NCBI GenBank assembly: GCA_900128565.1
Contig: LT636022.1
Coordinates: 1-21,870 of the forward strand
DNA length: 21,870 nt
Direction: 5' to 3'
Source: Stramenopiles sp. TOSAG23-6
Taxonomy: Eukaryota; Sar
A program made the position numbers and the translations under genes. Numbering within the stretch: the stretch's first letter is position 1; every line of letters starts with the position of its first letter. Below the pieces are notes generated by a model. The model ran no database searches, was not told where the DNA came from, and was given only the letters and a program-made list of their open reading frames with translations. Shown here one piece after another: positions 6,572 through 21,870 of this stretch.

Positions 6572-8479
6572 GTTTTGTTAGAACATTCTTTGCTTCTACT
6601 ATAGCCTTTGCTTGTTTTTTAATACACGAAATTACTTCTTTCCCTTTTCTTGCAGTTACTACAGCATCTACAATAGGTGCTGGGTATTCATATAATACTT
6701 CAACCCGTTGTGCATCTCTGCGACAATTTGAAATGATATCATTATTAATACTTTTTGCACTCTTTCTTTTGCGAATTATACAAACACCAAACTTTTTTTG
6801 AACACTTGCCGGCATTTTCGATGGTTCATGAATCCATTCTTTTGTCACTTTTGAAAGTTCTGGTATGTACTTTCGTATAAATGTACCATACTTATCATGA
6901 TCTTTTCCTTGTTTTGTTACGGAGTACACTCTCATGGCATTAATACCAGTAACTCCACTTTGCATCTGTAGTTGAGGATAGTGAATACCAGGCTCATAAT
7001 CAAGAAAACAGCGAGCGAGATGTTTCCCTATTACACGCCAGTCTAACCATAAATTGTATGCAGCAAAAGAAACAACCATGTCATTTGGGAAAATATTTTC
7101 AAAAAGAAAATTCGTTAGGTTTGGAATTGCGTACGAAAAAAGAAACTTTAAAAAAAGAAAAAAAAAAAATTGTAAAATTAAAAAAACGTACATTGCTCGC
7201 ATTCGAAAATTTAACCACCCATGACGTGAAAGGCACCTCATACACGCATCAACCATAGGAAATCCAGTAAGTCCTTTTTTCCAAGCAACGAAATATTCTT
7301 CATTATGTTCACCTTTACCACAGCGAACCGTATCATAAATTCTAGACTGAGCATGTATTTAAGAAAATATTTCAAAAAAAATTTGTTAGGTACAAAATTT
7401 CGTACGAAAAAAAAATCGAATTTGAAAAAAAATAAAAACATACATGGTATTCAATATCAGGTTCACTTTCCAGCTTTTGTATGAAATGTGAACGCCACCG
7501 TAAACGAGAATGAAAACTTGCAAGTGATCTTGGCCAGCTGTCTTTAGAAAATGATCTACCTGCTTTTTTCTGTTTACGGACAAGTTTTTGCTTCTTTATT
7601 AATTCATGTACAACTCTTCGATTTGAGATATGTCCAAAAGTGAGATAGGCACTTACTGTATTGTAGAAAAATATTTCAAAATGTTTTTTGTTAGGTACAA
7701 AATTGCGTACGAAAAATAAATTCGATTTTTTTGTAAAAAAAAAAATAAAACATACATCGAGAACAAGAATTCCAAGCCAAGGAAGGCGATGAAATACCAC
7801 GTTGATACCCTTCTCCTCTCCTTGTCAACCAATTTTGAAGTACCTGCAGCGCGAGTGTCTCACCACCAGCTTGGCGTTCGACTCTATCTTCCTTATGGTC
7901 ATTAGAAATTAAACCAAGATCTGCAAGCTGAGCAGAAGACTGGATCCCACACGAAGGAAATCCACGACAAAGTTTAACAAAGTCACACGGACCAGGAGAT
8001 GGGTATTGTGGTTGTTGCATAAACTTATTATATCCTAATGTAAACTTGTCCCTATCCTTCAGCCCACGAGTCACACCATTTTGTGTAACTTCTTTGAAAT
8101 TAATCTTCATTTTTCGACAGAAACGTCGAACTCGTTTATCACGTTCAAAGGATTTTCCATGACCTGTTTCTTCATGAGCAAATACGCTTTTAATTTTCTT
8201 ACATTTGTTAAGATCGGCTAGAATATCAGTCGCTTCACCAATTCGGAAAATAATACATGGTTTGTCTTTCTCGTCGTCGAGCATTCCACGTATCAATTCA
8301 TCAAGTACTGATAGACCTTCGTTACAAAAGTTTATGTGACTACCATGGAGAGTTGGATGTGACAGCTGGTCTGGCTCATACATATAAATGATACAAAATG
8401 GACTACGTGCACGTACAGCGAGTGCTAGTGGTCCATTATCGTGAATTCGTGCATCCTTTTTCAACCAAACTACATTCAT
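6519..8479 (-). CDS. photolyase/cryptochrome family flavoprotein, four exons
   Basis: Exons in order of transcription: 8479-7756, 7655-7444, 7352-7192 and 7077-6519; the last may extend to 6170. The start is ATG at 8479 (MNVVWLKKDARIHDNGPLAL); a TTG four codons earlier is not a eukaryotic start. Exon 1 holds the N-terminal alpha/beta antenna-type domain and the beginning of the FAD domain (RGEGYQRGISSPSLAWNSCS). Exons 2-4 complete the helical FAD-binding domain: SAYLTFGHIS, HFIQKLESEP, TGFPMVDACMRCL, GWLNFRMRAM, then LWLDWR, DYEPGIHYPQLQMQSGVTGIN, RVYSVTKQ and FIRKYIPEL. The QMQSGVTGIN pattern points to the bacterial-type lineage found in marine bacteria and algae rather than plant cryptochromes. 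Expected role: light-dependent DNA repair or blue-light sensing, probably nuclear. All three introns are introner copies; their removal restores frame exactly. The apparent stop at 6519 lies just past a run of N bases. Confidence 0.85.
7078..7191 (-). mobile_element. introner copy 1 (photolyase intron 3)
   Basis: 114-nt intron, phase 2. 5' junction GCAAT|GTACGT, 3' junction TGACAT|GGTT. The core is slightly diverged (CGTACGCAATTCCAAACCTAAC). There is no AG near the 3' end. Removal joins RAM to VVSFAAYNLW, a contiguous conserved stretch of photolyases, which fixes the boundary within the AT repeated at both ends. Confidence 0.85.
7353..7443 (-). mobile_element. introner copy 2 (photolyase intron 2)
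   Basis: 91-nt intron, phase 0. 5' junction ACCAT|GTATGT, 3' junction ATACAT|GCTC. Perfect core. The branch-point A is about 33 bases from the 3' end. An AG two codons further in (GCTCAG) would also keep frame but would delete two residues from a segment of well-kept length, so ATACAT is preferred. Confidence 0.82.
7656..7755 (-). mobile_element. introner copy 3 (photolyase intron 1)
   Basis: 100-nt intron, phase 1. 5' junction TCGAT|GTATGT, 3' junction ATACAG|TAAG. This is one of the few copies with a canonical AG. GT-AG removal gives CSRLSAYLTFG, which fits the family's usual Ser-Arg-Leu-Ser in that position. Confidence 0.85.
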
Positions 8480-8727
8480 TTGCTTCTTCAAGTAATGTGT
8501 TTTTGTTATTTGTTGTTGTGTTTCGTCTCAGGATCAGATCGGACTTTGTTTTTTGTTTTTGCGTTGTTTGAATAAAAACTCCGAAAAAGGGCTCAAAATT
8601 ACAGTTACATCTCTCCTTGCAATTGTACAAGTCAACAAGAACTTCATGTAAACAGACTAGCAAACATTCAACTTTAGATTGAAAAATAAAATAATGAGAA
8701 CGTGTTTTCATTGTAAATAATGCAAAA
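8480..8727. promoter_or_regulatory. short divergent promoter, photolyase / WW-IQ-EF gene
   Basis: Only 248 bases separate the two divergent start codons. The sequence is T/G-rich on the photolyase side (tgtttttgttatttgttgttg) and AT-rich elsewhere. No TATA box or repeat stands out. Any promoter here is shared. Confidence 0.35.
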
Positions 8728-11331
8728 ATGCCTATAGATACTCATAGAAAGGATACATCTACAGACAAACCTATGCTTTCAACACCGACTGTTGACTCCA
8801 AGACAAATTCTGTCAAGAAAGTTGAGTTTACGCTTCCAGTTGAATATAAACGTGGGATACACCCGGACACGGGAAAACGTTGCTACATATGCATTGCAGA
8901 TGGTAGCACTCATGATTCTATTAGAGCAGACGATATGCCCCAAGGGTGGTTTATCAGACAGTCTCAAGATGGTAAAGAATATTTTTATAATCCTGAGTTA
9001 AAGATTTCCCAGTTTGAAGTACCAAATCATAAAGATACTGTCCTCGCAATAGTTGCAAAAAAACGAAAAGATAACAAGGAAATAATCGATAAATTAGAAT
9101 CTGTACAAAAAATTCAAATGCAACGCAGTGCAATGGGAATGCCCCCTCAGGGTAACGATTGGAATGAAGAAAATATTGTAGAGGCAATGCAAATACAATT
9201 CGATCGAGTGGACCAAGCTACACAAAGACGCCGAGCTGGAGATGGCTTTGCATACTTAGGAATTGGTGAACTTGAATTTGAGTCACTTTGGCAATTAACA
9301 ATTTGGGCATTTAAGAGGTTTAAGCCTCAAGGAGTAGCTGTTGATGCTTCTGAATTGAATATGTTACGCACAAGTTTAATCCGTGAAATGGATACTTTAA
9401 TACAAGAATTCAATACACAAAATAAGTATTATGGAAAATCAAAATGGGAAAAAGAATGCAAACCATCTACATTAGACTGGGAAACATATCGTAAGTGGTT
9501 CATTGATGCATTACGACAACTTCGTAGTCGACGTGTTTTACGCAATCGTGTCGCAGAAATATTTAAAATGAATTATGCATCATCTCGTTTACAAGCAATT
9601 ATTCGAGGACAACGTGCAAGAAAATGTGATCCTCGAGCAATAACTATTCAACAAAAATTAAACCCTGTATTAAATCGACAGAAAGAAAGAAAACATATGG
9701 CTTTAGAGCGGAAAAAATCAGCTGCAAAACTTCAAGCAGTTTTTAGAGGTCGACAAACAAGAAAGCAAAGAATTGATTGGAGGTCTGAGGAAACAGTTTA
9801 TTTGAAGTTGTATTTCGACAAATATGATGCAGATAAAAGTGGAGAACTCGATGTGAAAGAACTAAATCTTCTTTTTAAAGATATTGGATGGATTTTCGAT
9901 ATGAGTGAAACAATTCAAATAATGAAGAATTCTGATACAAATGATAGTGGAACAATTGATTTCGGAGAGCTGCTTTTAATAGTAGAATCAAGTAAGCGTA
10001 GAAATACATCGTTAAAACTTGAAATGTTACATAAAAACATGACGGAAACAGAAAATGTGGAGAGAAGCTTAATTGTTCTTTCTACCACAGATGTAGTCCA
10101 ACCGAGTATTTCGAGTGAAAAGACTCAAAAAAGTGAAGTAGTCACAAAAGATGTTGTTATTAGTAGGAGTGAAGATGTTGTTGTTGTTAATAGGAATGAA
10201 GATGTTGTTGTTAGTAAGAGTGAGGATATTGTTGGTGTTATTAGGAGTGAAAAGATGACGAAAGCCTCATATGATGATATGTTACAACGAAAACGTGAAA
10301 GATTCAAAAAACATTTGGTAAAATCTTCTAATGAAAAGATGACGAAAGCCTCATATGATGATATGTTACAGCGAAAACGTGAAAGATTCAAAAAACATTT
10401 GGTAAAATCTTCTAATGAAAAGATGGGGCACGATAGTGAAGCAAATATTAAAGTAGAGGTAAAGCCAATAAAGATACCCCCAGTGGTATCGAGACTTTAC
10501 ACCCATACGAACGAGGGTATGTCTCCAGAGTTCTGGAAGCTTCGAATGCAAAGCATAAAGGAAAGCAATAATCGTAAGTCGAAAATGCTAAAGTATCTCA
10601 AAGAACGAAAGGAAATCAATGGTGGAAAATCAGTATATAATAGATTATATGACAAAAACGTAAGAGAAACACAAAGAATAGCTCGTGAAGAAATGCATAA
10701 TCGAAATGCTCGAAGACTTACAGCACAGAATGAAATATATTATCCTTCTTTTGGATCACCTAAAAATATTCCAAAGAATAAAAAAATGAAGCCGTGGAAA
10801 AATGCATATCCGAGAAGAAAAAAGAAGATAAAAAAGAGTCAAATGAATAAAAATGGAAAAAGAAAAGAACGTAGGACTATAATCGGCAACATTAATATTG
10901 ATAATAATGTACTTCTTCTGGATAAGCAGAAAAATGAAAAACAAAATCAAACAAAACCAGTATCAATTGATCTTGAAACAATGCTACAAAATCATTCAAT
11001 TCAACAAAAGAGAATGGTATTACATCGAAAACAAGCAAATCTTATTTTGCTTTTATCAAAAGCAATAGTGGACAGTGAACCTCAAAGCACAATCAGTCGA
11101 ATACAGAAGAAACTCCGTGCAACTAATAGATCTATCAATACTTTCCCACTCATTCCCCTTGCTTCCCCTTCATTTAAAGTAGACCCTAATCCTAATGCGA
11201 CAAGTAAACCAAAAAATAATGATTTCGATAAGCTAGGTAAAAAAGATTCAGACCTGGAAATTATATCGAATAGTAAAAAATCAGAAATTTCGTCCCTTGT
11301 TTTACCATCCATACAAAAAATACAGAAATAA
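8728..11331 (+). CDS. WW, IQ and EF-hand domain protein
   Basis: An intronless frame of 867 residues, ATG at 8728, TAA ending at 11331. Residues ~71-99 are a WW-type domain (MPQGWFIRQSQDGKEYFYNP), which binds proline-rich ligands; the second WW tryptophan is replaced by Phe (QFEVP). Two IQ motifs follow (~284-300 RLQAIIRGQRARK; ~331-348 KLQAVFRGRQTRK), the usual calmodulin-binding type. A canonical EF-hand pair has loops at 367-378 (DADKSGELDVKE) and 403-414 (DTNDSGTIDFGE). Residues ~474-507 are a degenerate EDVVV repeat, and 508-563 a perfect two-fold 28-residue repeat. The C-terminal half is very basic and probably disordered. Likely a calcium/calmodulin-responsive cytoskeletal or ciliary scaffold (inference). 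Its WW domain and the neighbouring proline-rich gene make an attractive but untested partner pair. Confidence 0.82.
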   Translation: MPIDTHRKDTSTDKPMLSTPTVDSKTNSVKKVEFTLPVEYKRGIHPDTGKRCYICIADGSTHDSIRADDMPQGWFIRQSQDGKEYFYNPELKISQFEVPNHKDTVLAIVAKKRKDNKEIIDKLESVQKIQMQRSAMGMPPQGNDWNEENIVEAMQIQFDRVDQATQRRRAGDGFAYLGIGELEFESLWQLTIWAFKRFKPQGVAVDASELNMLRTSLIREMDTLIQEFNTQNKYYGKSKWEKECKPSTLDWETYRKWFIDALRQLRSRRVLRNRVAEIFKMNYASSRLQAIIRGQRARKCDPRAITIQQKLNPVLNRQKERKHMALERKKSAAKLQAVFRGRQTRKQRIDWRSEETVYLKLYFDKYDADKSGELDVKELNLLFKDIGWIFDMSETIQIMKNSDTNDSGTIDFGELLLIVESSKRRNTSLKLEMLHKNMTETENVERSLIVLSTTDVVQPSISSEKTQKSEVVTKDVVISRSEDVVVVNRNEDVVVSKSEDIVGVIRSEKMTKASYDDMLQRKRERFKKHLVKSSNEKMTKASYDDMLQRKRERFKKHLVKSSNEKMGHDSEANIKVEVKPIKIPPVVSRLYTHTNEGMSPEFWKLRMQSIKESNNRKSKMLKYLKERKEINGGKSVYNRLYDKNVRETQRIAREEMHNRNARRLTAQNEIYYPSFGSPKNIPKNKKMKPWKNAYPRRKKKIKKSQMNKNGKRKERRTIIGNINIDNNVLLLDKQKNEKQNQTKPVSIDLETMLQNHSIQQKRMVLHRKQANLILLLSKAIVDSEPQSTISRIQKKLRATNRSINTFPLIPLASPSFKVDPNPNATSKPKNNDFDKLGKKDSDLEIISNSKKSEISSLVLPSIQKIQK
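10249..10416 (+). repeat. 84-bp in-frame tandem duplication
   Basis: Two copies, 10249-10332 and 10333-10416, differ at a single base that I can see (ttacaacg versus ttacagcg, synonymous). Each encodes EKMTKASYDDMLQRKRERFK plus eight further residues. The near-identity implies recent duplication or ongoing homogenisation. It follows a shorter degenerate repeat (about 10141-10248) encoding variants of SEDVVV. Confidence 0.95.
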
Positions 11332-11360
11332 AAAATGTATTTTGTTTTTATCAGTTTTTT

Positions 11361-12272
11361 TTATATTTTAACAATTTTTAAGTTTTTCGCTTTATAATTT
11401 CGAATTTGAGTTCCATTTTCTTTCAAAAATTCAATCATCCATTTGTTTTTGGCATGATTAAATTTCAATACATTTCCTGTAAGACCTTTGCAAGAACCAG
11501 CAACAGCAACAACACATTTCCCAGTTACAATTTCATCACCATTTTCATCGTGGTTTTGTGCTGGAATTACTACTTGACTTATAGTAAGCGATCGCCTATT
11601 CATTTCTAAAGCAATTTTATCTTCTACTGTTTGATGAAATTGTTCACTATCTTCAAGATCGAGGTAAATATCGTTTAGTTCTTTTGACTTTCTTACTTCA
11701 AGAGACATAGTCTTCAAAGCTTTCTCAAGTTTCGATGTTGCTTCACTGAGGTTTAGTATAGGTTCAGATTGACTTGGTTTTGGAGAATTTTTTTTTGATC
11801 GATTTGGTCTAGGTGGTGGCATTTTTTTCCCCAAATGAATTGCTGGTTTTGGCATTGGCGCTGACGGCAATGGAGGAGGGCATCTCCGAGTCTTCTGTAT
11901 TGGTGATGCTCGAGGAGACAAAATATTCGGTGATAATCTGCCTGACACAGGAACTGACTTCTTTATTGAACTTTGCGTCGGTGGAAATGAATGTATTTGA
12001 TTTCTTTTAGATCGAGAAAGTGGTGTTTTAATTGTATGTGGGAGAGGTGGTGGCCCTTTCTTATGTAATTTTGTTTTAGGTAGAGGTGGTGGAACGTTTT
12101 TGTTTTTAAGTGTAAACTTTCGTCCAAATGTGACGTTTGGCATGACAGACACATATCCCCCTCGTGACTTTACAGAGTTGAGTTCTGTATCCTCAACTTC
12201 CAAAAAGTTTTCGTAGTTTTCTTTGTTATGTATTGTACGATCATTTGAAGTATATGATGCATTATAATCCAT
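11361..12272 (-). CDS. proline-rich protein with C-terminal KOW/SH3-like domain
   Basis: 303 residues from ATG at 12272 (MDYNASYTSNDRTIH) to TAA at 11361. The open frame extends upstream to 12344 but has no ATG there. Four proline ligand motifs lie at ~61-65 PPPLP, 74-78 PPPLP, 132-136 PPPLP and 152-156 PPPRP, each flanked by basic residues; these suit SH3, WW or profilin binding. The last ~50 residues (GKCVVAVAGSCKGLTGNVLK, then FNHAKNKWMIEFLKENG) resemble a KOW/SH3-like barrel: a V.V..G..KGLTG turn, then a strand pattern. Its stop is 29 bases from the convergent stop of the WW/IQ/EF gene. Possibly an actin- or scaffold-linked adaptor (inference). Confidence 0.7.
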   Translation of the reverse strand: MDYNASYTSNDRTIHNKENYENFLEVEDTELNSVKSRGGYVSVMPNVTFGRKFTLKNKNVPPPLPKTKLHKKGPPPLPHTIKTPLSRSKRNQIHSFPPTQSSIKKSVPVSGRLSPNILSPRASPIQKTRRCPPPLPSAPMPKPAIHLGKKMPPPRPNRSKKNSPKPSQSEPILNLSEATSKLEKALKTMSLEVRKSKELNDIYLDLEDSEQFHQTVEDKIALEMNRRSLTISQVVIPAQNHDENGDEIVTGKCVVAVAGSCKGLTGNVLKFNHAKNKWMIEFLKENGTQIRNYKAKNLKIVKI

Positions 12273-12369
12273 ACTTAGAATACGTGGTAATAAAACTGAT
12301 TTTAGTTTGATTTCTTCTACGGTAGTTTGATAGTGGAAATTCAAAATGATGAACGGAAATTTGTAAATG

Positions 12370-12390
12370 GTACGGAATTTCGTACTTAAT
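12370..12390 (+). repeat. introner-core-like motif in a spacer
   Basis: GTACGGAATTTCGTACTTAAT matches the introner core segment from GTACG to CTAAC at 17 of 21 positions by eye. It lies about 100 bases upstream of the proline-rich gene's ATG, outside any frame I can assign, and on the strand opposite to that gene. It may be a relic, a 5'UTR remnant, or chance in AT-rich DNA. Confidence 0.35.
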
Positions 12391-12534
12391 ATTTCATTTT
12401 GACTGACTATAATTATTTAAAAAAAATAGGAAATCGAGCAGTTTTGTTCCTTTAGGTCAAAACTCTGAAAAAAGAAGATTTTTTTTTCAGAAATTCCTTT
12501 TATTTAAAATGTTATAATATTTCTATTGTATAGA

Positions 12535-13873
12535 TTAGAAACATTTAGATCTCACTATTGTTTGACCAACATCATCATATTCTTGTTTTGTAATTTTCAT
12601 ATTTTTAAATGTACTCAATGAAGCTAGCATTGAGCCTCCTATCCAAGCTCCATATTTTCTCTGTGAATCTGAAAATACTTTTGTAGGTATTTCTATACCA
12701 TTTTGGTACGAAATATCTTGTTGCAATCTATTTATATAATTGGGTAACATGGAAGAGCCTCCAGAAATTACGACTGCATCATATAAAGTATTGCGAGTAT
12801 CTTCATCACATCCTAAAATGCTATCCTGTACTAATTGTGCCACTCCAGCTTCTGAGGCAACTGTATTGTGAAAAAATATTTTTTTTTTTTTTTACCGAAA
12901 ATAAAAAAAAAATCGTTAGGTACAAAATTTGGTACAAAATATTTTTTTAAAATTAAAATTTTGAAATTGAAAACGTACATTCTCGACCTAAAATTTCTGG
13001 GTTAAAAAGCGCCTCAGTACAAGTATATCTAGAAGCAGGATCAATTTGAATGATCTCACCATCGGGTAATTCATAATCAACACCATATCCTCCATCTTTT
13101 AGCTCATTTTGCAAATGTAGAGAAACAGCACAGGTAGCTTCTTTAATTTTTTGAACAATTGACATTTGCGATCTAGAAAATTTTCGACCACGCGAAGAAA
13201 GCATTTTCTGTAAATGTTTATCAATTTCGAGGCCAGCAACTTTATTTTTTTGCGATGCATAGCGTAGACCATATCCTTCGAAGACGGGTAGGGTTGTTGT
13301 CGCACCACCGCCAGCCTCTACAGCTAACCCATTAGTTCTCCCAGTTGAAAATAGAGAAAGTACAGGCTGTGGTGCCACATAAAATCCATTCACTTTAATT
13401 TTTTCAAACATAATTCTACACATATATTCTCTATTCTTGTTATTATTTTGACAAGAATCTGTCAGTAAAACTGGAAGATTATCCACCTCAGGATCAACGT
13501 CCATTGCCTCATACAGTGCCCAATCCCATATTTGTTCAATTGATTCTCTTTTCCCCTCTTTTGAAGACATTTCTCCATTGACAATTGGATAAGTTAAAGA
13601 CATTTTGTTTCTACGGGATAAAGCTGCTTCACCAACAGCAAAACCTTTTTCACTGATTCGAGCAGATACGTCATTTATCCGTCGTTTTTTCTGTTTTCCC
13701 AAAGTTTTTTTTCTAGGTTTGTCGGAATTCGTGTCATCATTACTACCAAGACCTACTGCTGGTTGACCAACTACCGTACGGAATACTGACTGTGGTTGAT
13801 CTTCTCCCGAATAACCTACTTTAGTAGAGAAACTACCAGCATCTATAACGATGGTTTGTTTTACGCTCTTCAT
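12535..13873 (-). CDS. divergent actin-related protein with degenerate ATPase site
   Basis: Two exons, 13873-12979 and 12860-12535, giving 406 residues. The actin fold is clear: IVIDAGSFSTKVGYSGED (phosphate loop 1), LPVLLTDSC...NREYMCRIMFE, VFEGYGLRYA, YELPDGEIIQID, ALFNPEILG, SGGSSMLPNYINRL and the C-terminal KYGAWIGGSMLASLSTF...EYDDVG..IVRSKCF, which ends exactly like conventional actin. A ~30-residue basic insert (residues ~41-70, DKPRKKTLGKQKKRRIND) replaces the D-loop region and looks like a nuclear localisation signal. Against muscle actin numbering, Q137 is Arg, D154 is Glu, D157 is Gly and H161 is Thr, so hydrolysis is probably lost. It may be a nuclear or structural ARP; I cannot assign a numbered class. 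The one intron is an introner. Confidence 0.85.
12861..12978 (-). mobile_element. introner copy 4 (actin-related gene intron)
   Basis: 118-nt intron, phase 1. 5' junction AGAAT|GTACGT, 3' junction ATACAG|TTGC, a canonical GT-AG pair. The core reads TTTTGTACCAAATTTTGTACCTAAC, so the first palindrome is altered while the CTAAC is kept. There is a long T tract downstream. Confidence 0.85.
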
Positions 13874-13950
13874 TGAATTTGACTTGAAAAAAACAGTGTG
13901 AAAGATCTTGAGGTCTTGGAGAAGAGAAATTTCTTGTAACGTTTTTTTAA

Positions 13951-13963
13951 GGTACCGGGTAAC
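13951..13963 (+). promoter_or_regulatory. GGTACCGGGTAAC motif, candidate promoter element
   Basis: Lies about 80 bases upstream of the actin-related gene's ATG (13873, minus strand). It matches the 686-698 motif at 12 of 13 positions. The rest of the 13874-14075 spacer is AT-rich with a long A/T homopolymer region near 14025-14055. Confidence 0.25.
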
Positions 13964-14075
13964 TTCTTTTTATTCCGGATAATATTTATAATTATTCTGT
14001 CCCCTTAACCACTTGAACACATTTTTTTTTCAATTTTTAATTTATTATTTTTTTGAAACTTTGCTCAAAATTCCG

Positions 14076-16449
14076 TCAAAATTCCTGAAATGTAAAATAA
14101 TTGGTATGCTCTTTGAATCCATAATCAAAAGGACTATAATTGTAAAGACTTTGCATTTCATTTATGTCTATCCCACAAGTTTGCAATGACTTTTCTAGTT
14201 GCTCTATATAATGAAGGTTATCAATCCTTGTTAATTTTCGTTTCAATTTCGAATTTAATGTATCAAATTTTTTACTTTGTCTGGAGTGAAAGTTAACAGA
14301 GTCCTTGTACCATTTCTGTGTGTATGTAATATATAACATTGGCCTGATTACATTACTTTTGTTTTCACCTCCCCCATGTATTTTGGAAAAATATTATTTT
14401 TTTTCGGTAAAAATTTGTTAGGTACAAAATTTCGTATGAAAAAAAAAANGTNAAAAATTCAATTTTGAAAACGTACATGAGTTAATTTCATATCAAAAAA
14501 TATTGCGCCACCTGCATTAAGTTGAGGTGAAAGAATATATTTTGAATCTTCCCTTTTATTTCTATGTGAATTTATATGAAACCTTGTCGGGCCATGTTCT
14601 TGTTTTATATCTATAAGTGGCCAAAATGAAATTATGTATTTTGGAAAAATATTTCAAAAAAAATCGTTAGGTACAAAATTGCGTACGAAAAAAAAACGAA
14701 TTTGAAAAAAAATTAAAACATACATACCATGTGACTTTTGAGTTTTGCCATCCGAAAACAACGGCCCAGTATCAGCATAAAATGTAAACAATATATCAAA
14801 ATGAAAAATAAAATATGTATTCATATGGAAGATGAAAACATCATATATTTTCTATAGATTTTGTAATACAAAAAGGGATTGAAAGTATTCCTTTACAATA
14901 AGTAAAAAAAATGAATATTTCATACGAAAATTCATACCTAACAAAATAAATAAAGTAAAACATACATGGATTATGAAAAAATATTTCAAAAAAAATCTAA
15001 AAAAAATCGTTAGGTACAAAATTTCGTACGAAAAAAAAAAGACGAATTTGAAAAAAAATAAAACATACATGAGAATGCTGACTTTTTGTCTTTGCTAATG
15101 ATGTCACGGATGAGAGTATACCTATTTCAAAATCATCATTTCCAAGTATTGAATTTAATAAATAATTCACTACTTTATTATCAACCAGCCCCGGATCATC
15201 AAATGTATCGTGAAAAAATATTTTATTTTTATTTTTTTGTTAGGTACAAAATTTCGTACGAAAAAAAAAACATCAAAATTGAAAAAAAATAAAACATACA
15301 TGGTTTTTGTAAAGGTAGATGAACGAGATAACGACCCTCAGAGCTAATCTTTCCCCTAGGGGAATTGTACTTGTCAATTTTCGTTTTCGATTCGTCTAAA
15401 TATTTCTTGAATTCAATTTTTTGAGCTTTTTGAATGTCTCTCAATAAGGATCCATTTATCACGTTTTCTATTGCAACAACACCACATGTATCAAGTATTC
15501 GAATTGCATGCCCAAGTATACGTAATGTTTCGATACTCTCTTTGTACATCGATCGAATTGAACTTGGTATATAAACAGTTATTTTTTCTGTTGTACTACA
15601 CCAGTTTTTGAGTTTTTCGTCTATACTGTTATATTTTAAACGCCAATCAATATACTTTCCACTAAATGTCCAATCGAGAGGCTTAATAATGATACCATTG
15701 TCTTTCGCTCTTTGAATAAGTCTAGATAAATGTTGTTCACTTTGAACTTCTATAGTTCTATCAAAACCACAATTCAAGGCAAGAACTTTTTGGAATGTTG
15801 TAATTGCAGCTGAAAGAAAATAGGTTCTTTCATCCTCTTTTCCTAACCAAATGAGACGCATGTATTGTGAAAAATATTTTTCTTGTAAAATTTGTTAGGT
15901 ACAAAATTCACTACGAAAAAAAACTTCATACAAAAAAAAAAATAAAACATACATTTGCGTAATCGCAATGTCATACAAATTAGCCACATTGTATTTTTCA
16001 CGAGCAACATCAATGAATAGTTGAAGCGCAAGTTGACTCTTTTCTTTGTCAGAGTAGTGTTGATTAGATAAGTCAATTGCTTTACTTCGTAATGCTTTTG
16101 AAGTTAAACATTTGTATGGTTCCATCGCCCACGCCTTTACGACTTGACGTTGCTGTACTGTATCAGATATACCAAACTCAGATAAAGCTGCACCGGATTG
16201 AGATTCCTCCAAAATAGCAGAAAAAACTTCACCTTCAATATCTTCGTTCAATATTAATTTCGAACGCTCGGAACGCACGTTGTAATTATCAACGTCTCCA
16301 AGCAAATTATTCAACCAAACTACTATTTCAGTAGAACTCCAGCTTGACTGTGCTTTCTGATTTTTAACACATTGGGCATATAATACAACTACTAATGATA
16401 GATGAAGAGTAAATGTAAAAGACAACATGATGGAACTTGAAAAATACAC
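14076..16449 (-). CDS. secretory-pathway protein with SAM-like and phytanoyl-CoA dioxygenase-like domains, six exons
   Basis: Exons: 16449-15953, 15859-15300, 15202-15069, 14851-14724, 14633-14477 and 14375-14076, giving 591 residues with all phases consistent. An internal Met at residue 8 is an alternative start. Residues ~8-27 (MLSFTFTLHLSLVVVLYAQC) form a signal peptide. Residues ~37-108 resemble a SAM domain (WSSTEIVVWLNNLLGDVDNY ... EFGIS). A middle region (~110-390) is unrecognised. Residues ~400-540 fit the PhyH branch of Fe(II)/2-oxoglutarate oxygenases: SFWPLIDIKQEHGPTRFHIN, GGAIFFDMKLTH (candidate distal iron ligand His492), then R503 in RPMLYITY (candidate 2-oxoglutarate contact). 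The proximal HxD could be HFD at 414-416; YAD at 422-424, just before TGPLF, aligns better with the family's spacing but lacks His. So activity is uncertain. Five introns interrupt it, the densest introner cluster here. Confidence 0.75.
14376..14476 (-). mobile_element. introner copy 5 (PhyH-like gene intron 5)
   Basis: 101-nt intron, phase 0. 5' junction CTCAT|GTACGT, 3' junction ATACAT|GGGG, no AG at the end. It contains two N bases at about 14450 and 14453 in the homopolymer next to the core. Removal joins FFDMKLTH to GGGENKSN across the candidate iron ligand, in frame. Confidence 0.85.
14634..14723 (-). mobile_element. introner copy 6 (PhyH-like gene intron 4)
   Basis: 90-nt intron, phase 2. 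5' junction GGTAT|GTATGT, 3' junction ATACAT|AATT. The core has CGTACGCAATTTTGTACCTAAC. Removal joins TQKSHG to IISFWPLID in frame. Confidence 0.85.
14852..14965 (-). other. older companion intron with an inverted core motif, abutting introner copy 7
   Basis: 114-nt segment starting GTATGTTTTA and ending CTATAG|AAAATATATG. It keeps canonical GT and AG ends, and taking it out together with copy 7 keeps phase 0 into exon 4. Internally it carries GTTAGGTATGAATTTTCG followed by TATGAAA, the reverse complement of the introner core with a few changes. It may be an inverted, decayed introner or an ordinary intron that received a core. An ATACAT-like end also exists at 14815-14820, but using it breaks the frame. 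Confidence 0.55.
14966..15068 (-). mobile_element. introner copy 7 (PhyH-like gene intron 3, first half)
   Basis: 103-nt element. 5' junction CTCAT|GTATGT, phase 0; perfect core. A small internal duplication of the T-rich tail is seen (TTTTTTTTAGATTTTTTTTG). Its 3' end ATCCAT is followed at once by GTATGT of the companion intron, so there is no exon between the two. Confidence 0.8.
15203..15299 (-). mobile_element. introner copy 8 (PhyH-like gene intron 2)
   Basis: 97-nt intron, phase 1. 5' junction ACCAT|GTATGT, 3' junction ATACAT|TTGA, perfect core. There is no AG near the end. Removal joins LPLQKP to FDDPGLVDN in frame. Branch-point A about 37 bases from the 3' junction. Confidence 0.85.
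15860..15952 (-). mobile_element. introner copy 9 (PhyH-like gene intron 1)
   Basis: 93-nt intron, phase 2. 5' junction CAAAT|GTATGT, 3' junction ATACAT|GCGT. The first core palindrome is decayed (TTTCGTAGTGAA), while TTTTGTACCTAAC is intact. Removal joins YDIAITQ to MRLIWLGKE in frame. Confidence 0.85.
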
Positions 16450-16808
16450 ACTAGTACGATATTAGCTAGTACCCAATATCTGCACACAAAAAAAAAATCT
16501 AACAAGAACGACGAAATCTCCGAAAAAATGGAAAAAATGTCCGATGAGTGTTTTTTTTGCTCTCGTTAGGGTTAGGGTTGCCTTTGATGTTTTTTTAAGA
16601 AGCAAAGAAGGCCTGACAGGCTGACACAAGTGGATAATAGCGCGATAATAGCCCACAATGCATCGAATGTAGTTTTTGTTACTGGACAACAAAAATAGTG
16701 ACAGTTCATCACAAAAGAAATTTGAAAAACACGAATTTTCTGATTAAACTTAAATAGGAGATAAAACTGTTTTTTTTTTTATTTTCTTGAATAATATTAC
16801 ATTTTGCA
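16450..16808. promoter_or_regulatory. spacer: promoter of the PhyH-like gene, 3' flank of the phosphatase gene
   Basis: About 360 bases. Next to the PhyH-like start is a repeat of ctagta (ctagtacgatattagctagta, 16450-16470). A telomere-like GTTAGGGTTAGGGTT lies at 16565-16579, and a short inverted element follows near 16612-16640 (cctgacaggctgac; gcgcgataatagcg). The right part is AT-rich. A 76-codon minus frame at 16462-16692 has no recognisable features and I do not call it. Confidence 0.4.
16565..16579. repeat. telomere-like TTAGGG repeat in a promoter
   Basis: GTTAGGGTTAGGGTT, two full units plus ends. On the minus strand it reads AACCCTAACCCTAAC, similar to the telo-box found in promoters of several eukaryotes. 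It is about 115-130 bases upstream of the PhyH-like ATG. It may be a factor-binding site, an interstitial telomeric remnant, or chance. Confidence 0.5.
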
Positions 16809-17570
16809 TCAAACTGGTTTCTCAGCTGGTTTATCTACGTCTGAAGATACTTCATCCCCACTATGACTAGATGGCTGGTTATGTATTAAACCAAGCGAAG
16901 CAGCTCGATCCCGTAAGGCTAGAACTGACCGAACATCACGCAAATGTTGAATTTGTTCAAGAAATGGGAGGATATCTAATAAGGCAGTATCATTTGGGTC
17001 ATCTACCCAACCACAAATAGGCACTGCATTTTTCTCACATAGAGAGTAACAAACAGGAGAGTTATCAACTAAAAGAACTTTAGATTGGTCAGCTCGAACT
17101 TTGCTTAAATCTTTCATAAAACATCCAGCCACTTCAGTGCAGCTCTGACGATAATATCTCTGCCTTACAACTCCCTTAGTATCAATACGATCGACAACAG
17201 GATCCGCATATAGTCTTTTACTAGCTGTAAATATTGCAATGTTATACCACTGACTGACATTTTCTAAAAATTCAAGTAAATGAGGCCGACACGATACGTA
17301 AAAGGTACATAATCTAGAACCCTCGTCGAACACATTTACCATAAAATCATAGTCTGAAGTTGGCCGTGTTGTAGAATGTACAAGAGTTTCATCTAAATCT
17401 AACACGAGAGTACATCTATTATGCACTCGCGCACTTACACGCGACTTACCATACAATCGAGTATGACTACAGTTCCTTGATAGACGAGATTTGGTAGCAC
17501 GAGTCTTACCAGTGGACTCATCGTGTGGGAAAAGTTGTGACAGAAACCACGAAGCAACTGTCGAAGCCAT
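16809..17570 (-). CDS. HAD-family protein phosphatase, CTDNEP1/Dullard-like
   Basis: Single-exon gene of 253 residues, ATG at 17570. The catalytic motif LVLDLDETLVHS lies at ~55-66, with D58 the expected phospho-accepting Asp and D60 the general acid. Downstream are the FCP/SCP signatures: FYVSCRPHLLEFLENVSQWY, IAIFTASKRLYADPVVD, the KDLSKV segment, VLLVDNSP, and WVDDPNDTALLDILPFLEQI followed by DVRSVL, which is the pattern of the CTDNEP1 (Dullard)/Nem1 branch. Those enzymes dephosphorylate lipins at the nuclear envelope/ER and so control membrane lipid synthesis. The N-terminus here is short and lacks an obvious membrane anchor (residues 1-15 are only mildly hydrophobic), so soluble SCP-type function is possible. 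Divergent with EB1 over a 320-base spacer. Confidence 0.88.
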   Translation of the reverse strand: MASTVASWFLSQLFPHDESTGKTRATKSRLSRNCSHTRLYGKSRVSARVHNRCTLVLDLDETLVHSTTRPTSDYDFMVNVFDEGSRLCTFYVSCRPHLLEFLENVSQWYNIAIFTASKRLYADPVVDRIDTKGVVRQRYYRQSCTEVAGCFMKDLSKVRADQSKVLLVDNSPVCYSLCEKNAVPICGWVDDPNDTALLDILPFLEQIQHLRDVRSVLALRDRAASLGLIHNQPSSHSGDEVSSDVDKPAEKPV

Positions 17571-17890
17571 TTCTATACTTGTTTATATTACTATTCAATA
17601 TCGATGTGGGTTTCTGGTATCACCCAATTTTTAATCGTTTACTGTAGGTTGCTTGCCCAATTATTAATAAATAGTAGGGAATTTAAGCAAGAAGAACTTG
17701 GCCAAAAACCAGAATGTTCTGTGATTGTGAAGATCCGTTTTACGTTTTACACGAAATAAAAAAAAAAATTGCAATGAATTTTTTTTGATGTTGATTGATG
17801 TTTCAAATGTTTGAATTGAAGAAGAGTTCTAAATTCTAATTCTTCCTCCTCCTCGAGGCTATCATATTTAGAGACTGTCAATTATACAAC
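17571..17890. promoter_or_regulatory. divergent promoter region, phosphatase / EB1
   Basis: 320 bases between divergent start codons. On the EB1 side a pyrimidine-rich tract (ttcttcctcctcctcgagg, about 17841-17859) lies 30-50 bases before the ATG, a likely transcription-start or leader feature. An A run followed by a T run near 17758-17788 marks the centre. No open frame or repeat. Confidence 0.4.
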
Positions 17891-18989
17891 ATGACCCCAA
17901 TTGTCCAAGTGAAAGCTGGTCTTATGGACCCTGCGTATTTCTTAGGTCGCCGTGAACTAGTCCAATGGGTTAATGCTGAGATTAACACAAATTATCAGAA
18001 AGTGGAAGAGACTGCTTCAGGTGCAGCTGTAGTCCAGCTCTTAGACAAATGTTTCCCAAAAAAGGTTCCTATGCATAAAGTCAACTGGGCTGCTAAAGCA
18101 GATTACGAATATATTCAGAACTACAAAATTATCCAAAAGCTTTTCAACAAATTTAAGGTTGAAAAGCACGTTGATGTCAACAAACTTATTCGTGGAAAGT
18201 ATCAGGATAATCTTGAATGGTTACAGTGGATGAAAGCATTTTTTGAAGCAAACTATAACGAAGCTGAAGAGTACGACGCAGTAGCACGCCGCGCCAAAGG
18301 GAAAGGTGGCTCAAAAGTTAAAACAAATTCAGGTAAGCCTCTAGCTCGTGCACAACGTAAATTGGCAGCTACTCCAGCTCCCGGTGCTGCTGCTCGAAAA
18401 AACAAAAGTCCTGCTAAAAAAGTTCGAGAAGAGTCTCCTTTGAAAGCTGCTTCGTTGAAAGAAAATAATGTAACTTCTCATGTTGGTGCACCAAGACCCC
18501 CGGCTTCAGCATCATCTGAAGCATCAGCGGCATTGAAAGAAAAATGCAAAAATTTGAAAAAAACAAACGAAAAACTCACAACGAAGAATACTTCTCTAAC
18601 TCAGTCAAATGCCGAATTAAAACTAATGGTTGATGGACTCGAGAAGGAACGCGATTTTTACTTTGCAAAACTTCGAGAAGTGGAAGTAATGTTACAAGAC
18701 GTGTACGTTATCATTTCCATTTTTTACCAACATTTTTTTTATAGAAAATTTTGTATGTAACAAAAAAACATTACCAAAAAAAAAATCCTAAACTCTAACT
18801 CTAATTTTTACTAAAAAAAATATTTTTTCATAACTCATGGTGGACGGTAACGACAAAGATATCGAAAAGCCAGATGATGAATCTCAGGTCAAAAAACTTC
18901 TTGATAAGTGTTTTGCTCTTTTATACGCATCCGAAGAAGGCAGCGAGGATTCAACTACAGAACAAGAAACTGGACAAGTTGTTGCGTAG
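17891..18989 (+). CDS. EB1: EB1-family microtubule plus-end binding protein, two exons
   Basis: Exons 17891-18702 and 18839-18989 give 320 residues. Residues ~14-120 form the EB1-type calponin-homology domain (LGRRELVQWVNAEINTNYQK; GAAVVQLLDKCFPKKVPMHK; NYKIIQKLFNKFKV; LIRGKYQDNLEWLQWMKAFF), which binds the growing microtubule lattice. A basic Ala/Pro linker (~140-210) follows, also microtubule-binding in the family. A coiled coil starting ~215 leads into the EB homology motif (KERDFYFAKLREVEVMLQD), and exon 2 completes it (VKKLLDKCFALLYASEEG), the part that recruits CAP-Gly and SxIP partners. The C-terminus (EQETGQVVA) lacks the acidic EEY/F tail of animal EB1. The intron is a diverged introner that splits the EBH domain. 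Confidence 0.93.
18703..18838 (+). mobile_element. introner copy 10, diverged (EB1 intron)
   Basis: 136-nt intron, phase 2. 5' junction GACGT|GTACGT, 3' junction ACTCAT|GGTG. The core has decayed (AGAAAATTTTGTATGTAAC), but a fresh CTAAC at 18795-18799 lies about 40 bases before the 3' junction, near the spacing seen in intact copies. Here the base pair before the 5' junction is GT rather than AT. Removal restores the EBH reading frame. Confidence 0.75.
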
Positions 18990-19054
18990 TTTTAAGTACA
19001 AAAAATAGTACGAAATCGTTGCGTAGTTTTAAGTACAAAAAATAGTACGAAATC
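18981..19054 (+). repeat. 37-bp perfect tandem repeat over the EB1 stop codon
   Basis: Copies at 18981-19017 and 19018-19054 are identical. The first contains the EB1 stop codon TAG (18987-18989). Each copy includes TTAAGTACAAAAAATAGTAC, which resembles the reverse complement of the introner core (about 20 of 24 positions over the aligned stretch). Confidence 0.9.
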
Positions 19055-19325
19055 TCACTATACGTACAACACTGCGTAGTCGTCTAATTACTACTACAAC
19101 TATATATTAATATATAGCTATATGGTCTAGTACTCAAAAACGTTTCTGATATGATATAGATGTTATAACAAAGATAGGAGAGCAAGGCTAAACAATAATA
19201 AATGAAACATTTTTACAACAAAAATAAAAAGTGTTTCATCTCAAATTTATTTTGTTCAAGTTATTTACATTTTAAATTATTTGATGTTTTTACATTAATT
19301 TAAAAATCATGCGCATTCAGTTAAA
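18990..19325. other. spacer between convergent EB1 and CD225 genes
   Basis: About 336 AT-rich bases with no usable frame. It starts with the 37-bp tandem repeat, then a palindromic AT block (tatatattaatatatagctatat, near 19100-19123). Further on, aataaatgaaac near 19197 could serve as the EB1 poly(A) signal. The mirrored aaatgttt/aaacattt segments near 19204-19240 might form a hairpin. Confidence 0.35.
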
Positions 19326-19664
19326 CTAGTATACCTCAATGAAAGGAGGAGTAAAACTGAACTTAACGATATTTAAAAGTCTCAGGGCGACGAGTGTATT
19401 TACAAGGAGAATAAAGCAAATGACGGCAGTAATAGCGTACCATTTAGATTTTAAAGCCGTTTTACGAGCTTCTTTTCGATAGCCATTATTTTTTTGTTGG
19501 CTTGAAATGTAATGGTAACGTACTGAAAAGATACCAATTGGGAAAAACATAACTAAACTCAACCAAGATAACCACATATAACTAGGCACATATATTATAT
19601 CGTCCGCCAGACCAATTCTGTGCTGGACTGGAAGGTCCTGAGTAGTATAACTAAAATATTGCAT
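19326..19664 (-). CDS. CD225/dispanin-family small membrane protein
   Basis: 112 residues, ATG at 19664, TAG at 19326. Two hydrophobic segments flank a basic loop. The first is ~30-46 (MWLSWLSLVMFFPIGIFSV). The loop is RYHYISSQQKNNGYRKEARK. The second is ~74-94 (WYAITAVICFILLVNTLVAL). The spacing and the PIGIFSV.Y...S......G....A...S..A.. pattern match CD225 (IFITM/dispanin) proteins, in which the first segment lies partly in the membrane and the loop faces the cytosol. Family members act in membrane fusion or vesicle trafficking; the role here is unknown. The protein is at the usual size for the family. Confidence 0.75.
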   Translation of the reverse strand: MQYFSYTTQDLPVQHRIGLADDIIYVPSYMWLSWLSLVMFFPIGIFSVRYHYISSQQKNNGYRKEARKTALKSKWYAITAVICFILLVNTLVALRLLNIVKFSFTPPFIEVY

Positions 19665-20136
19665 CCTTTTTTCAAATAACTATGTCTATACTTAAGAGAC
19701 TATATTACTTTCAACACTCTAGTATTGTGCCTATATTATGATCAATTCAACTGAGTTATTTAATGAATATCCGGGGCTGTGAAGCACTGTTAAAGAAACC
19801 ACCGGTCAGGCACAGTTGCAAAGAAGCCGCTGCAGGAACTGAGCGGTCAAGCTGTTAAATTCCTGAAAATGGTACCCGGATCACCACATGCCGAATGCCG
19901 AAAAATAAAAATTGAATAATTTTTCGCCCGCTCGCTCGGCAAAAAGATTTTTTTTTGAGTAGCATTTTTATCTCAGATCATCTAAAAAAGGTTCATAATA
20001 TTATTATTTAAACAGGTCTACTTGTGGTGAGCAATTATTATATAAACACAATATAACTGTCATGATTTGGGTAAAGGGTTGTGCTTAAGATTGGGTTCAT
20101 TACAGTGGTGCTTTTATTATTGCTAGTCCACAAAAG
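19665..20136. other. divergent spacer holding a GC-rich structured segment
   Basis: 472 bases between divergent starts with no plausible coding frame. Most is AT-rich, but about 19765-19945 is clearly richer in GC and rich in inverted repeats; it is annotated separately as a possible RNA gene. The remaining 19960-20136 is AT-rich and should hold the promoter of the downstream kinase-like gene. Confidence 0.4.
19765..19960 (+). ncRNA. possible structured non-coding RNA, strand uncertain
   Basis: A GC-richer island in an AT-rich spacer. ATCCGGG near 19769-19775 can pair with CCCGGAT at 19875-19881, closing a ~100-base domain. Inside, CCGCT and AGCGG can close a small hairpin (gcaggaactg loop), and CTGTG can pair with CACAG. 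A second hairpin follows: GCCGA...CGAAAAAT with AATTTTTCG...TCGGC. It ends with a run of nine to ten T bases near 19949-19957, typical of RNA polymerase III termination. I compared it mentally with tRNA, 5S, U-snRNAs and SRP RNA and could not match it. Pairings were found by eye, not folded. Confidence 0.3.
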
Positions 20137-21814
20137 ATGCTACCCAAGTTGAGTATTTCACTTCCAGAAACTGAGAGTACGCCGTCTCGTAAGTCTTATA
20201 AACCCCTTTCTCCTCTTTCAACAAAGCGTACGTTCAGCGGCGTCGGATCACCATTATCTCGTCGTCCAAGTAAGAAAGTGCTTGAAACACCAAATCATTC
20301 TTTTGTAGATATAAAATTACTTGAACGTATCTTTTTAGACTTGGATCGCGATGGAGATGGTTTAATATCTCGTGATGAGTTTAGGGAAATCTGCTCTAAT
20401 ACAGATTATTTAAATCTCAGCCCAGAAGAAGTAGAGCGAGTGTTCCGTTGCATGGATCGTTCTGAACGCGGTGTCCTGAATTTTAAGCAGTTCAAAAAGG
20501 CAATTCGTCGAAGGAGGTTTATGTCGAGTATAGTGAGCACATATCACGTCAATTTTTTATTCAAAGTTATGCCAAACTACGACTACACAAAGTCGACAGC
20601 TGTGAACTATAAATCTGGTGACAAGACGTTTCATGGTGATTTTGCTAGTATTCGTAAGAAACTTGACTATTCTTATCATGTAAATTATTGTAAGAAACGT
20701 CAGTTGTGGCAGGATGCGGTAATTAAAAGTGTTGCTTCTCGCGGCGAGAGTCAACCAAATCCTTGGGTTGTTTACACATGTGGTCCAATGGGTGCTGGTA
20801 AAGGCTATGCTCTATCGTGGATGTCAAGATTTGGTTATTTTCCTCTGGAAGACATAGTGCATGTTGATCCAGATCATTTTAAACGCTTGATGCCTGAGTG
20901 GAAAGGATATCTGGAACATGTTTGTTTTCATCATATATTTGAAATTTATTTTTTTTCGTACGAAATTTTGTACCTAACGAATTTTTTTCACTAAAAAAAA
21001 TATTTCGAAATATTTTTTCACAGTATAGGATAATGAAACAGCTGGAACTCACTGTCACTTAGAATCTGCATATATGCAAGAGATTGCACAAGAAGTCGGT
21101 TTACAAGACTCGGTAAATATGTGGATTGATGGTAGTCTTCATGATGTACGTTTTCATTTGAATTTCAAATTTTTTTCATACGAAATTTTGTACCTAACGA
21201 TTTTTTTTTTGAAATATTTTCCCAAAATACACGGTTTATGGTTCTCTCAGGTATTTACCACATTACGTCTACGATTTCCTCAATATCGAATTGCAATTTT
21301 TTATGTATATTGTAGTGAACAAGAAGTTCGAAGACGCATGTATGTTTATATGAATTTCTAATTTAATATTTTTTCATACGAAATTTTGTACCTAACGAAT
21401 TTTTTTTTGAAATATTTTTTCACAATACATCGCTAAACGAGCTGAAGAAACTGGGAGAGTCATTCCTGAGAGTATGATTCAAAATTCTCTAGATTCACCA
21501 ATCAAAAGTTTGCGTTTACTTACACCTAAATGTGATTTTGTTGCTCAAATTAATAATGAAGGTCCAACTCCTATTCTTGAAGCTTTTGAAACTATTGACA
21601 GATCAGGTCGTTGGCAACTCATAAGTAATCAATTTTCAACTGATGCAACGCACCCTCTTGATTTCCCAGAAATTTTATCGCCTCTTTTTGTTTCAAAATT
21701 ATATCCTGTACAATGTAAAATATCAAATAATACTGCATTTGGGCTAGTAGTACCAGATGAAGAAAATTGTAAATTGAGCAATTATGTATGTTTTATTCAT
21801 CGTACATTTCAAAC

Positions 21815-21849
<35 letters not shown>

Positions 21850-21870
21850 AATATTTTTATAAAAAATTTT
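20137..21870 (+). CDS. EF-hand protein with zeta-toxin-like P-loop kinase domain (3' end outside window)
   Basis: Exons 20137-20919, 21029-21145, 21233-21339 and 21431-21785, continuing past the window. Residues 1-~55 are Ser/Pro-rich. A canonical EF-hand loop is at 70-81 (DRDGDGLISRDE), followed by a degenerate partner at ~107-118 (MDRSERGVLNFKQF). A Walker A loop follows at 216-223 (GPMGAGKG), with Gly where Ser/Thr is usual. Then come VDPDHFK and LMPEW at the end of exon 1, AGTHCHLES in exon 2, WIDGSLHD, and RFPQYRIAIFYVY in exon 3. This order fits the zeta-toxin/UDP-GlcNAc-kinase P-loop class. In protists such domains are usually found as EF-hand fusions; there is no sign of a toxin-antitoxin pair here, and calcium-regulated phosphotransfer is inference. 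All four introns are introners. Confidence 0.82.
20920..21028 (+). mobile_element. introner copy 11 (kinase-like gene intron 1)
   Basis: 109-nt intron, phase 0. 5' junction AACAT|GTTTGT (the only GTTTGT), 3' junction TATAG|GATA, canonical AG. The core is perfect. The tail AAATATTT is repeated (aaaaaaaatatttcgaaatatttttt), putting the branch A about 51 bases from the 3' end. Confidence 0.85.
21146..21232 (+). mobile_element. introner copy 12 (kinase-like gene intron 2)
   Basis: 87-nt intron, phase 0. 5' junction TGAT|GTACGT, 3' junction ATACAC|GGTT. Branch A 35 bases from the end. An AG 18 bases further (CTCAG at about 21246-21250) would also keep frame, but would drop six residues (GLWFSQ) that lie in a conserved-looking stretch. 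Confidence 0.75.
21340..21430 (+). mobile_element. introner copy 13 (kinase-like gene intron 3)
   Basis: 91-nt intron, phase 2. 5' junction CGCAT|GTATGT, 3' junction ATACAT|CGCT, near-perfect core (TTTCATACGAAA). No AG at the end. Removal joins QEVRRR to IAKRAEETG in frame. Confidence 0.88.
21786..21870 (+). mobile_element. introner copy 14, cut by the window end (kinase-like gene intron 4)
   Basis: 5' junction AATTAT|GTATGT, phase 0, then TTTTATTCATCGTACATTTC. A 30-base T run follows at 21816-21845. The core that should follow is not reached or is lost, so membership rests on the 5' end and context. Confidence 0.55.

Follow-up and report, generated by a model that had tools for sequence, protein, structure and literature searches.

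The stretch of DNA analysed here (the window, 21,870 nt) is contig C72 of an 8.03-Mb assembly in 408 contigs. Pfam searches named four genes in it that carry introns, namely a photolyase, a member of the actin family, an EB1 gene and a gene with an EF-hand and a zeta-toxin fold; a Pfam search of the fifth, at 14-16 kb, gave no match. Distributed over these five genes and both strands, we found 12 clear introns belonging to a single sequence family, and three further copies, of which one is decayed, one composite and one truncated. The members with defined coordinates were as follows.

7078-7191, minus strand: family intron, third in the photolyase gene; GT...ACAT, no terminal AG; join RAM-VVSF
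7353-7443, minus strand: family intron, second in the photolyase gene; GT...AT
7656-7755, minus strand: family intron, first in the photolyase gene; GT...AG; join SR-L-S
12861-12978, minus strand: family intron in the actin-like gene; GT...AG; join REFAS, the same as in gene model P0121
14376-14476, minus strand: family intron in the gene without a name at about 14.1-16.4 kb; GT...AT
14634-14723, minus strand: family intron, same gene; GT...AT
14966-15068, minus strand: family intron, same gene; the composite copy directly adjoins it
15203-15299, minus strand: family intron, same gene; GT...AT; frame test true
15860-15952, minus strand: family intron, same gene; GT...AT; frame test true
18703-18838, plus strand: decayed family intron in the EB1 gene; GT...AT; after joining, the protein matches the C-terminal motif of EB1
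20920-21028, plus strand: family intron in the EF-hand/zeta-toxin-fold gene; GT...AG; frame test true
21146-21232, plus strand: family intron, same gene; GT...AC
21340-21430, plus strand: family intron, same gene; GT...AT; frame test true
21788-21870, plus strand: partial family copy, 5' part only, the rest being cut off by the contig end

A first-pass annotation of this DNA had proposed one element family, mostly 87-118 nt long, in the introns of five unrelated genes on both strands, and our analysis agrees with it. The core GTTAGGTACAAAATTNCGTACGAAAA, allowing up to three mismatches, was found 11 times in the window and not once in 100 shuffled versions, and the 12 clear copies measured 87-118 nt. 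The claim that essentially every intron of the window belongs to the family also fits the data: two long genes, with frames at 807-6008 and 8728-11331, are open without any intron, and the interrupted gene models open on removal of family copies only.

The composite copy, at about 14780-14966, has its core inverted and begins in the AT that closes the preceding element; it is possibly an insertion into the end of another element. Beside the EB1 gene, a 37-base tandem pair with GTACAAAAAATAGTACGAAA (18976-19049) recalls the family core. An 84-base tandem duplication, 99% identical, lies at 10248-10415 inside the WW/EF-hand gene, and its length keeps the frame. Scanning the window with Rfam and for tRNAs gave no hits.

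Introners are a leading explanation for bursts of intron gain, and the first-pass annotation had interpreted the family as such, proposing that its core be searched for across the assembly. The 16-base core CGTTAGGTACAAAATT (at most two mismatches) gave 1,263 and 1,400 matches, 2,663 in all, in the 8.03-Mb assembly, against 4 and 6, or 10 in all, for the reversed pattern; loci are fewer than core matches because some contigs are duplicated or palindromic. A stricter assembly-wide pattern, requiring both ends and a 3' AT, returned 473 matches with T before the GT and 29 without. The exact 25-letter core pattern had no match in prokaryote and viral contig collections, from which the host genome itself is possibly absent. 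Describing the copies as near-identical was too strong. Among 60 genome copies the median pairwise identity was 0.73, the nearest-neighbour median 0.86 and the maximum 0.93, compared with 0.60 for a shuffled control. This is an older family with recent branches. The introner interpretation keeps its support from thousands of copies and from the orientation and frame data given below, and loses the near-identity of the copies.

Read from 5' to 3', the element comprises the donor GTAYGTTT, a palindromic TTTCGTACGAAA, a branch-like TACCTAAC, a T-rich tail and the end CAMAATACNT, with the branch A at a median of 39.5 nt from the element end. The 60 sampled copies were selected by donor and branch patterns, so the following frequencies are not independent of that selection: the donor was GTAYGT in 58 and GTTYGT in two, with GT, G at +5 and T at +6 in all, and a branch-like CTAAC/G/T was present in 58. 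AG more than 18 nt beyond the branch occurred 10 times in these copies, as against 17.7 (sd 3.0) in shuffles. Two canonical features of U2 introns, the GT donor and the branch site, are present, and the terminal AG is mostly absent. The inverted repeat is short, GTAT...ATAC only, about 4-6 bp (6 bp if the AT duplication is included); a study of introners calls short terminal inverted repeats ambiguous (PMC9860276, in its available text). Pairing between the RNA ends is weak, with at least 4 base pairs in 26 of the 60 copies and a fold z of -0.93.

We then considered 72 curated copies, drawn from about 200 kb of host genome and ten loci, among which a few false ones remain (for example 11202-11323, antisense within an open frame). 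The set does not include C14, which duplicates C13, the second palindrome arm of C2, or loci L002, L004, L006, L008, L029, L030, L032, L038 and L040-L043. A search requiring TT before GT supplied loci L031 and L033-L036, and TT is consequently over-represented, although the shuffle test used below preserves these margins. The flanking open frame was longer on the element strand for 66 of the 72 copies and on the opposite strand for 5. Where both flanks had one clear frame (54 testable copies), a cut from GT through the terminal NT joined the flanking frames in 47 (p=4e-16); some of the seven misfits are miscalled copies. Excision of family copies alone opened the frames for photolyase, the actin-like protein, insulin-degrading enzyme, an ABC transporter, a helicase and ATP synthase beta. 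Retention of the copies in mRNA was rejected on their lengths, which are distributed 18, 30 and 24 modulo 3 (n=72).

Exact removal and a short direct repeat at the borders would also be seen if these were DNA elements eliminated from a somatic genome, like ciliate IES, with no RNA splicing at all. However, the sense bias, the GTAYGT donor and the CTAAC motif would be useless for DNA elimination, and the nearest named relatives are stramenopiles, not ciliates; we give this explanation hardly any weight. Ciliate IES have TA boundaries and no strand preference, and were rejected as a model for the family on its NT boundaries and its bias of 66 to 5. The assembly does have faults of the kind that amplification produces (the 26-kb perfect palindrome of C2 and the near-identical C13 and C14), as would be expected if the copies were artefacts of single-cell amplification; a variant of this idea is that they are unspliced insertions in dead genes. 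Yet the joined proteins are open and conserved, and amplification does not explain why family members of 100 nt sit at points neutral to the frame in 47 of 54 cases, which leaves this explanation with a negligible probability.

The AG acceptor is among the most conserved signals of eukaryotes. The first-pass annotation correctly recorded that the elements end in ATACA(T/G/C), but missed that most copies are thus without an AG acceptor. Terminal AG was found in 3 of the 72 curated copies; the dinucleotide pairs at the 5' and 3' ends were AT/AT in 37, TT/TT in 7, GT/AT in 4, TT/AT in 4, AT/AG in 3 and AT/AC in 3, with others making up the rest. For copies that end in something other than AG, where one third is the chance level of frame fit, the NT end fitted in 44 of 51; by comparison, 19 of 51 fitted at the nearest AG downstream and 8 of 26 at an AG within the element. 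When the base after AATACA was not T, it was G in 32, A in 31 and C in 25 of 88 rows counted by hand across the assembly, including three G rows and one A row that overrun the true end; no fewer than two of the A rows do not represent elements. These last-base variants show no pull towards AG.

We analysed the predicted protein joins to position the cut. The photolyase join RAM-VVSF, at an intron ending in ACAT, places an M that is found in 120 of 120 homologues among the matches listed. In ATP synthase beta the join WDK-F-DQQKRSKWTG gave a gapless alignment to P0241, with 70 of 78 residues identical. As deduced from these alignments, the conserved joins in the two proteins leave no room for AG. 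In the joined EB1 protein, the match to the C-terminal motif (residues 250-301) spans the join. The family might nevertheless consist of ordinary introners that use canonical AG acceptors near the element, AT being a mere repeat boundary; the three copies that end in AG, and the actin-like gene model that uses it, are what this would predict. The photolyase and ATP synthase beta joins argue against it, AG is not favoured among last-base variants, and downstream and internal AGs fit the frames at chance while the NT end does not, making this reading improbable.

Identical dinucleotides at the two ends leave the cut position not placeable, and we therefore turned to copies whose ends differ. Photolyase intron 1 (AT...AG) yields L under a GT-AG cut and V under both shifted cuts; the corresponding column, in 120 homologues among the matches listed, contains L in 104, I in 13, W in 3 and V in none. 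For the insulin-degrading-enzyme copy (TT...AT), the GT-AT and TG-CA cuts both produce I and the third produces N; the aligned human enzyme has L at this position. The actin-like gene model P0121, itself a prediction, uses a GT-AG cut. On the basis of these three genes, we favour a cut in which the exon would keep the 5' copy of NT, and the common AT/AT copies are presumably cut in the same way, by extension from those with differing ends. The photolyase intron 1 and actin-like joins are also expected of a canonical spliceosome, because both introns end in AG. U12-type AT-AC introns have the donor ATATCC and the branch TTCCTTAAC. They were rejected for this family, in which the donor would have to be ATGTAYG, and the insulin-degrading-enzyme join disfavours such a cut.

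A comparison of the 5' and 3' junctions within loci showed that N of the NT dinucleotide matched in 54 copies against 39.2 expected (0 of 5,000 shuffles), and the match was not significant at the other 13 offsets (-6 to +7). An alternative scoring with more miscalled ends gave 42 matches against 32.2 (p 0.001). Across the assembly, where TT preceded the GT, TT also followed AATAC in 29 of 46 copies, or 27 of 42 without repeated rows (counted by eye), and TT at the 3' end across all copies amounted to 7 of 100 among the matches listed. The T before GT was lost in 29 of 502 copies ending in AT; the T-loss counts do not show clearly stronger constraint on the 5' copy of NT than on the 3' copy, and do not clearly separate the two ends. 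The pattern of matches suggests a target duplication of 2 nt in which T is fixed, and therefore DNA insertion and not reverse splicing. Had the family spread through RNA, with spliced introns reverse-splicing into other transcripts and returning to the genome by reverse transcription, the sense bias of 66 to 5 among 72 copies would be expected as well. That route, however, should leave no target duplication, yet N matches within loci and TT/TT pairs are enriched, and we regard it as very unlikely.

Taken together, the introner family is very probably a non-autonomous DNA element that duplicates its NT target, with splicing removing the element and the 3' copy of NT. According to this proposal, an element of roughly 100 nt would insert at NT (usually AT) and duplicate it, resulting in the layout ...NT/GTAYG...CTAAC...ATAC/NT..., and would supply both GTAYGT as a strong donor and CTAAC as a branch site some 40 nt from its 3' end. 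Genic copies lie in sense orientation, and the element would be spliced out along with the 3' copy of the duplicated dinucleotide, leaving the protein unchanged. The last two intron bases would then be the duplicated NT, mostly AT, sometimes TT, GT or CT, and rarely AG. Copy number, orientation, frame restoration, the within-locus match of N and the conserved protein joins were computed; the U2 spliceosome presumably carries out the removal, and a DNA transposase would move the element.

The most unusual feature seems to be the acceptor, which would be the duplicated NT, mostly AT, while the donor GTAYGT and branch CTAAC are ordinary; intron ends here are those deduced from frames and homology. 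A further suggestion, to which we assign an even chance, is that the spliceosome in a MAST-3-like lineage sets the 3' splice site without AG, such that the NT from the 2-nt duplication serves irrespective of its first base, with the distance from the CTAAC branch and the AATAC motif fixing the position of the site. If this is true, a donor and a branch site would be all that a transposon has to carry in order to act as a functional intron at nearly any NT within a gene. Searches of the partial assembly for U2AF1 and U6, run without positive controls, gave no match. A large stramenopile family with a target duplication as acceptor and a canonical donor and branch would imply that the rules for the two intron ends are separable, and such a family would be a natural test of 3' splice-site choice. 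Surveys based on GT-AG gene models can miss families of this kind.

Several known systems share some of these properties. Introners in diverse eukaryotes, as described in the available text of Gozashti et al. (2022, PMC9860276), resemble the present family in being similar short introns in unrelated genes, with similarity up to the splice boundaries and target duplications from which splice sites may be taken; rare GC and GA donors are reported. However, the duplications there are 3-9 bp and that text names no non-AG acceptors, whereas our family duplicates 2 nt and has a mostly AT acceptor. The word 'MAST' is absent from the main text of that study. In Amoebophrya, RNA-seq supports non-canonical repeated introns which, like those described here, have direct repeats at their boundaries and ends outside GT-AG (PMC7789003, as far as available). 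Their ends are highly diverse, with direct repeats of 3-5 nt and inverted repeats of 8-20 nt; here the donor is uniformly GT, the departure is confined to the acceptor, and inverted repeats measure about 4-6 bp. Fritillaria borealis has AG-AC and AG-AT introns and a divergent U2AF (PMC13326754, in the parts available). The AC and AT ends are shared with our family, and the YAY that closes Fritillaria introns almost always, and often precedes them, may be compared with CAT here; Fritillaria is, unlike our host, a chordate in which the donor has changed too, with duplicated U2AF subunits and RNA evidence. The nonconventional introns of diplonemids and euglenids also have variable borders but, according to the available text of PMC12621601 and PMC4770533, need pairing of their ends, whereas 26 of 60 copies here pair over at least 4 bp and the donor and branch are ordinary. 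Mirusviruses contain 69 candidate introners, with no mention of MAST in the available text (PMC12768974). We found no report of introners or introns in MAST-3 in the open literature, which covers few subscription journals; an earlier description may exist. Judged from the genomic sequence, this seems to be a real and large introner family in a MAST-3-like stramenopile, its unusual feature being an acceptor formed by the target duplication, mostly AT.

The predicted actin-like protein matched EukProt GSMAST32.ASY1.ANO1.2729.1 at 378 of 380 residues, both differences lying beside two internal gaps. We take the name GSMAST32 to refer to the MAST-3 single-cell set of PMC5778133, which, in its available text, includes MAST-3A and MAST-3F. 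This match indicates that the host, an uncultured marine protist, is probably of the MAST-3 lineage, either MAST-3A or MAST-3F. The photolyase relatives that carry organism names, among the 120 matches listed, are stramenopiles (diatoms, Triparma and Heterosigma), and a pattern search for the rRNA 3' end gave no match. For MAST-3F, too few complete protein matches were available for training a gene predictor (PMC5778133, in its available text), and a family of non-AG introns may help explain the poor gene models in MAST-3 single-cell genomes.

Contig C2 contains a 25.9-kb perfect palindrome (L009-L011), and contigs C13 and C14 (L027, L028) share 99.99% identity across 10 kb. In the window, the contig start (1-55) and the WW/EF-hand gene (9766-9820) are linked by a perfect 55-base inverted repeat, which probably reflects a chimera that amplification created at the end of the contig. 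The palindrome and this repeat fit single-cell amplification. In a Cpn60/TCP1 search we obtained C330, whose gene is uninterrupted, L039, a divergent gene that contains family copies, and contig C380. The last (L038, L040-L043) carries an HSP60 gene with long GTAAGT-type introns, its best PDB match being named glomalin, and the family core was absent from the 6 kb of it that were checked. C380 is probably a foreign contig; if native, ordinary introns also exist in the host genome. None of the 72 curated copies came from the 30 kb of C7 that were examined, and on C150, near 15108, there is a CCCTAA-like run resembling telomere repeats.
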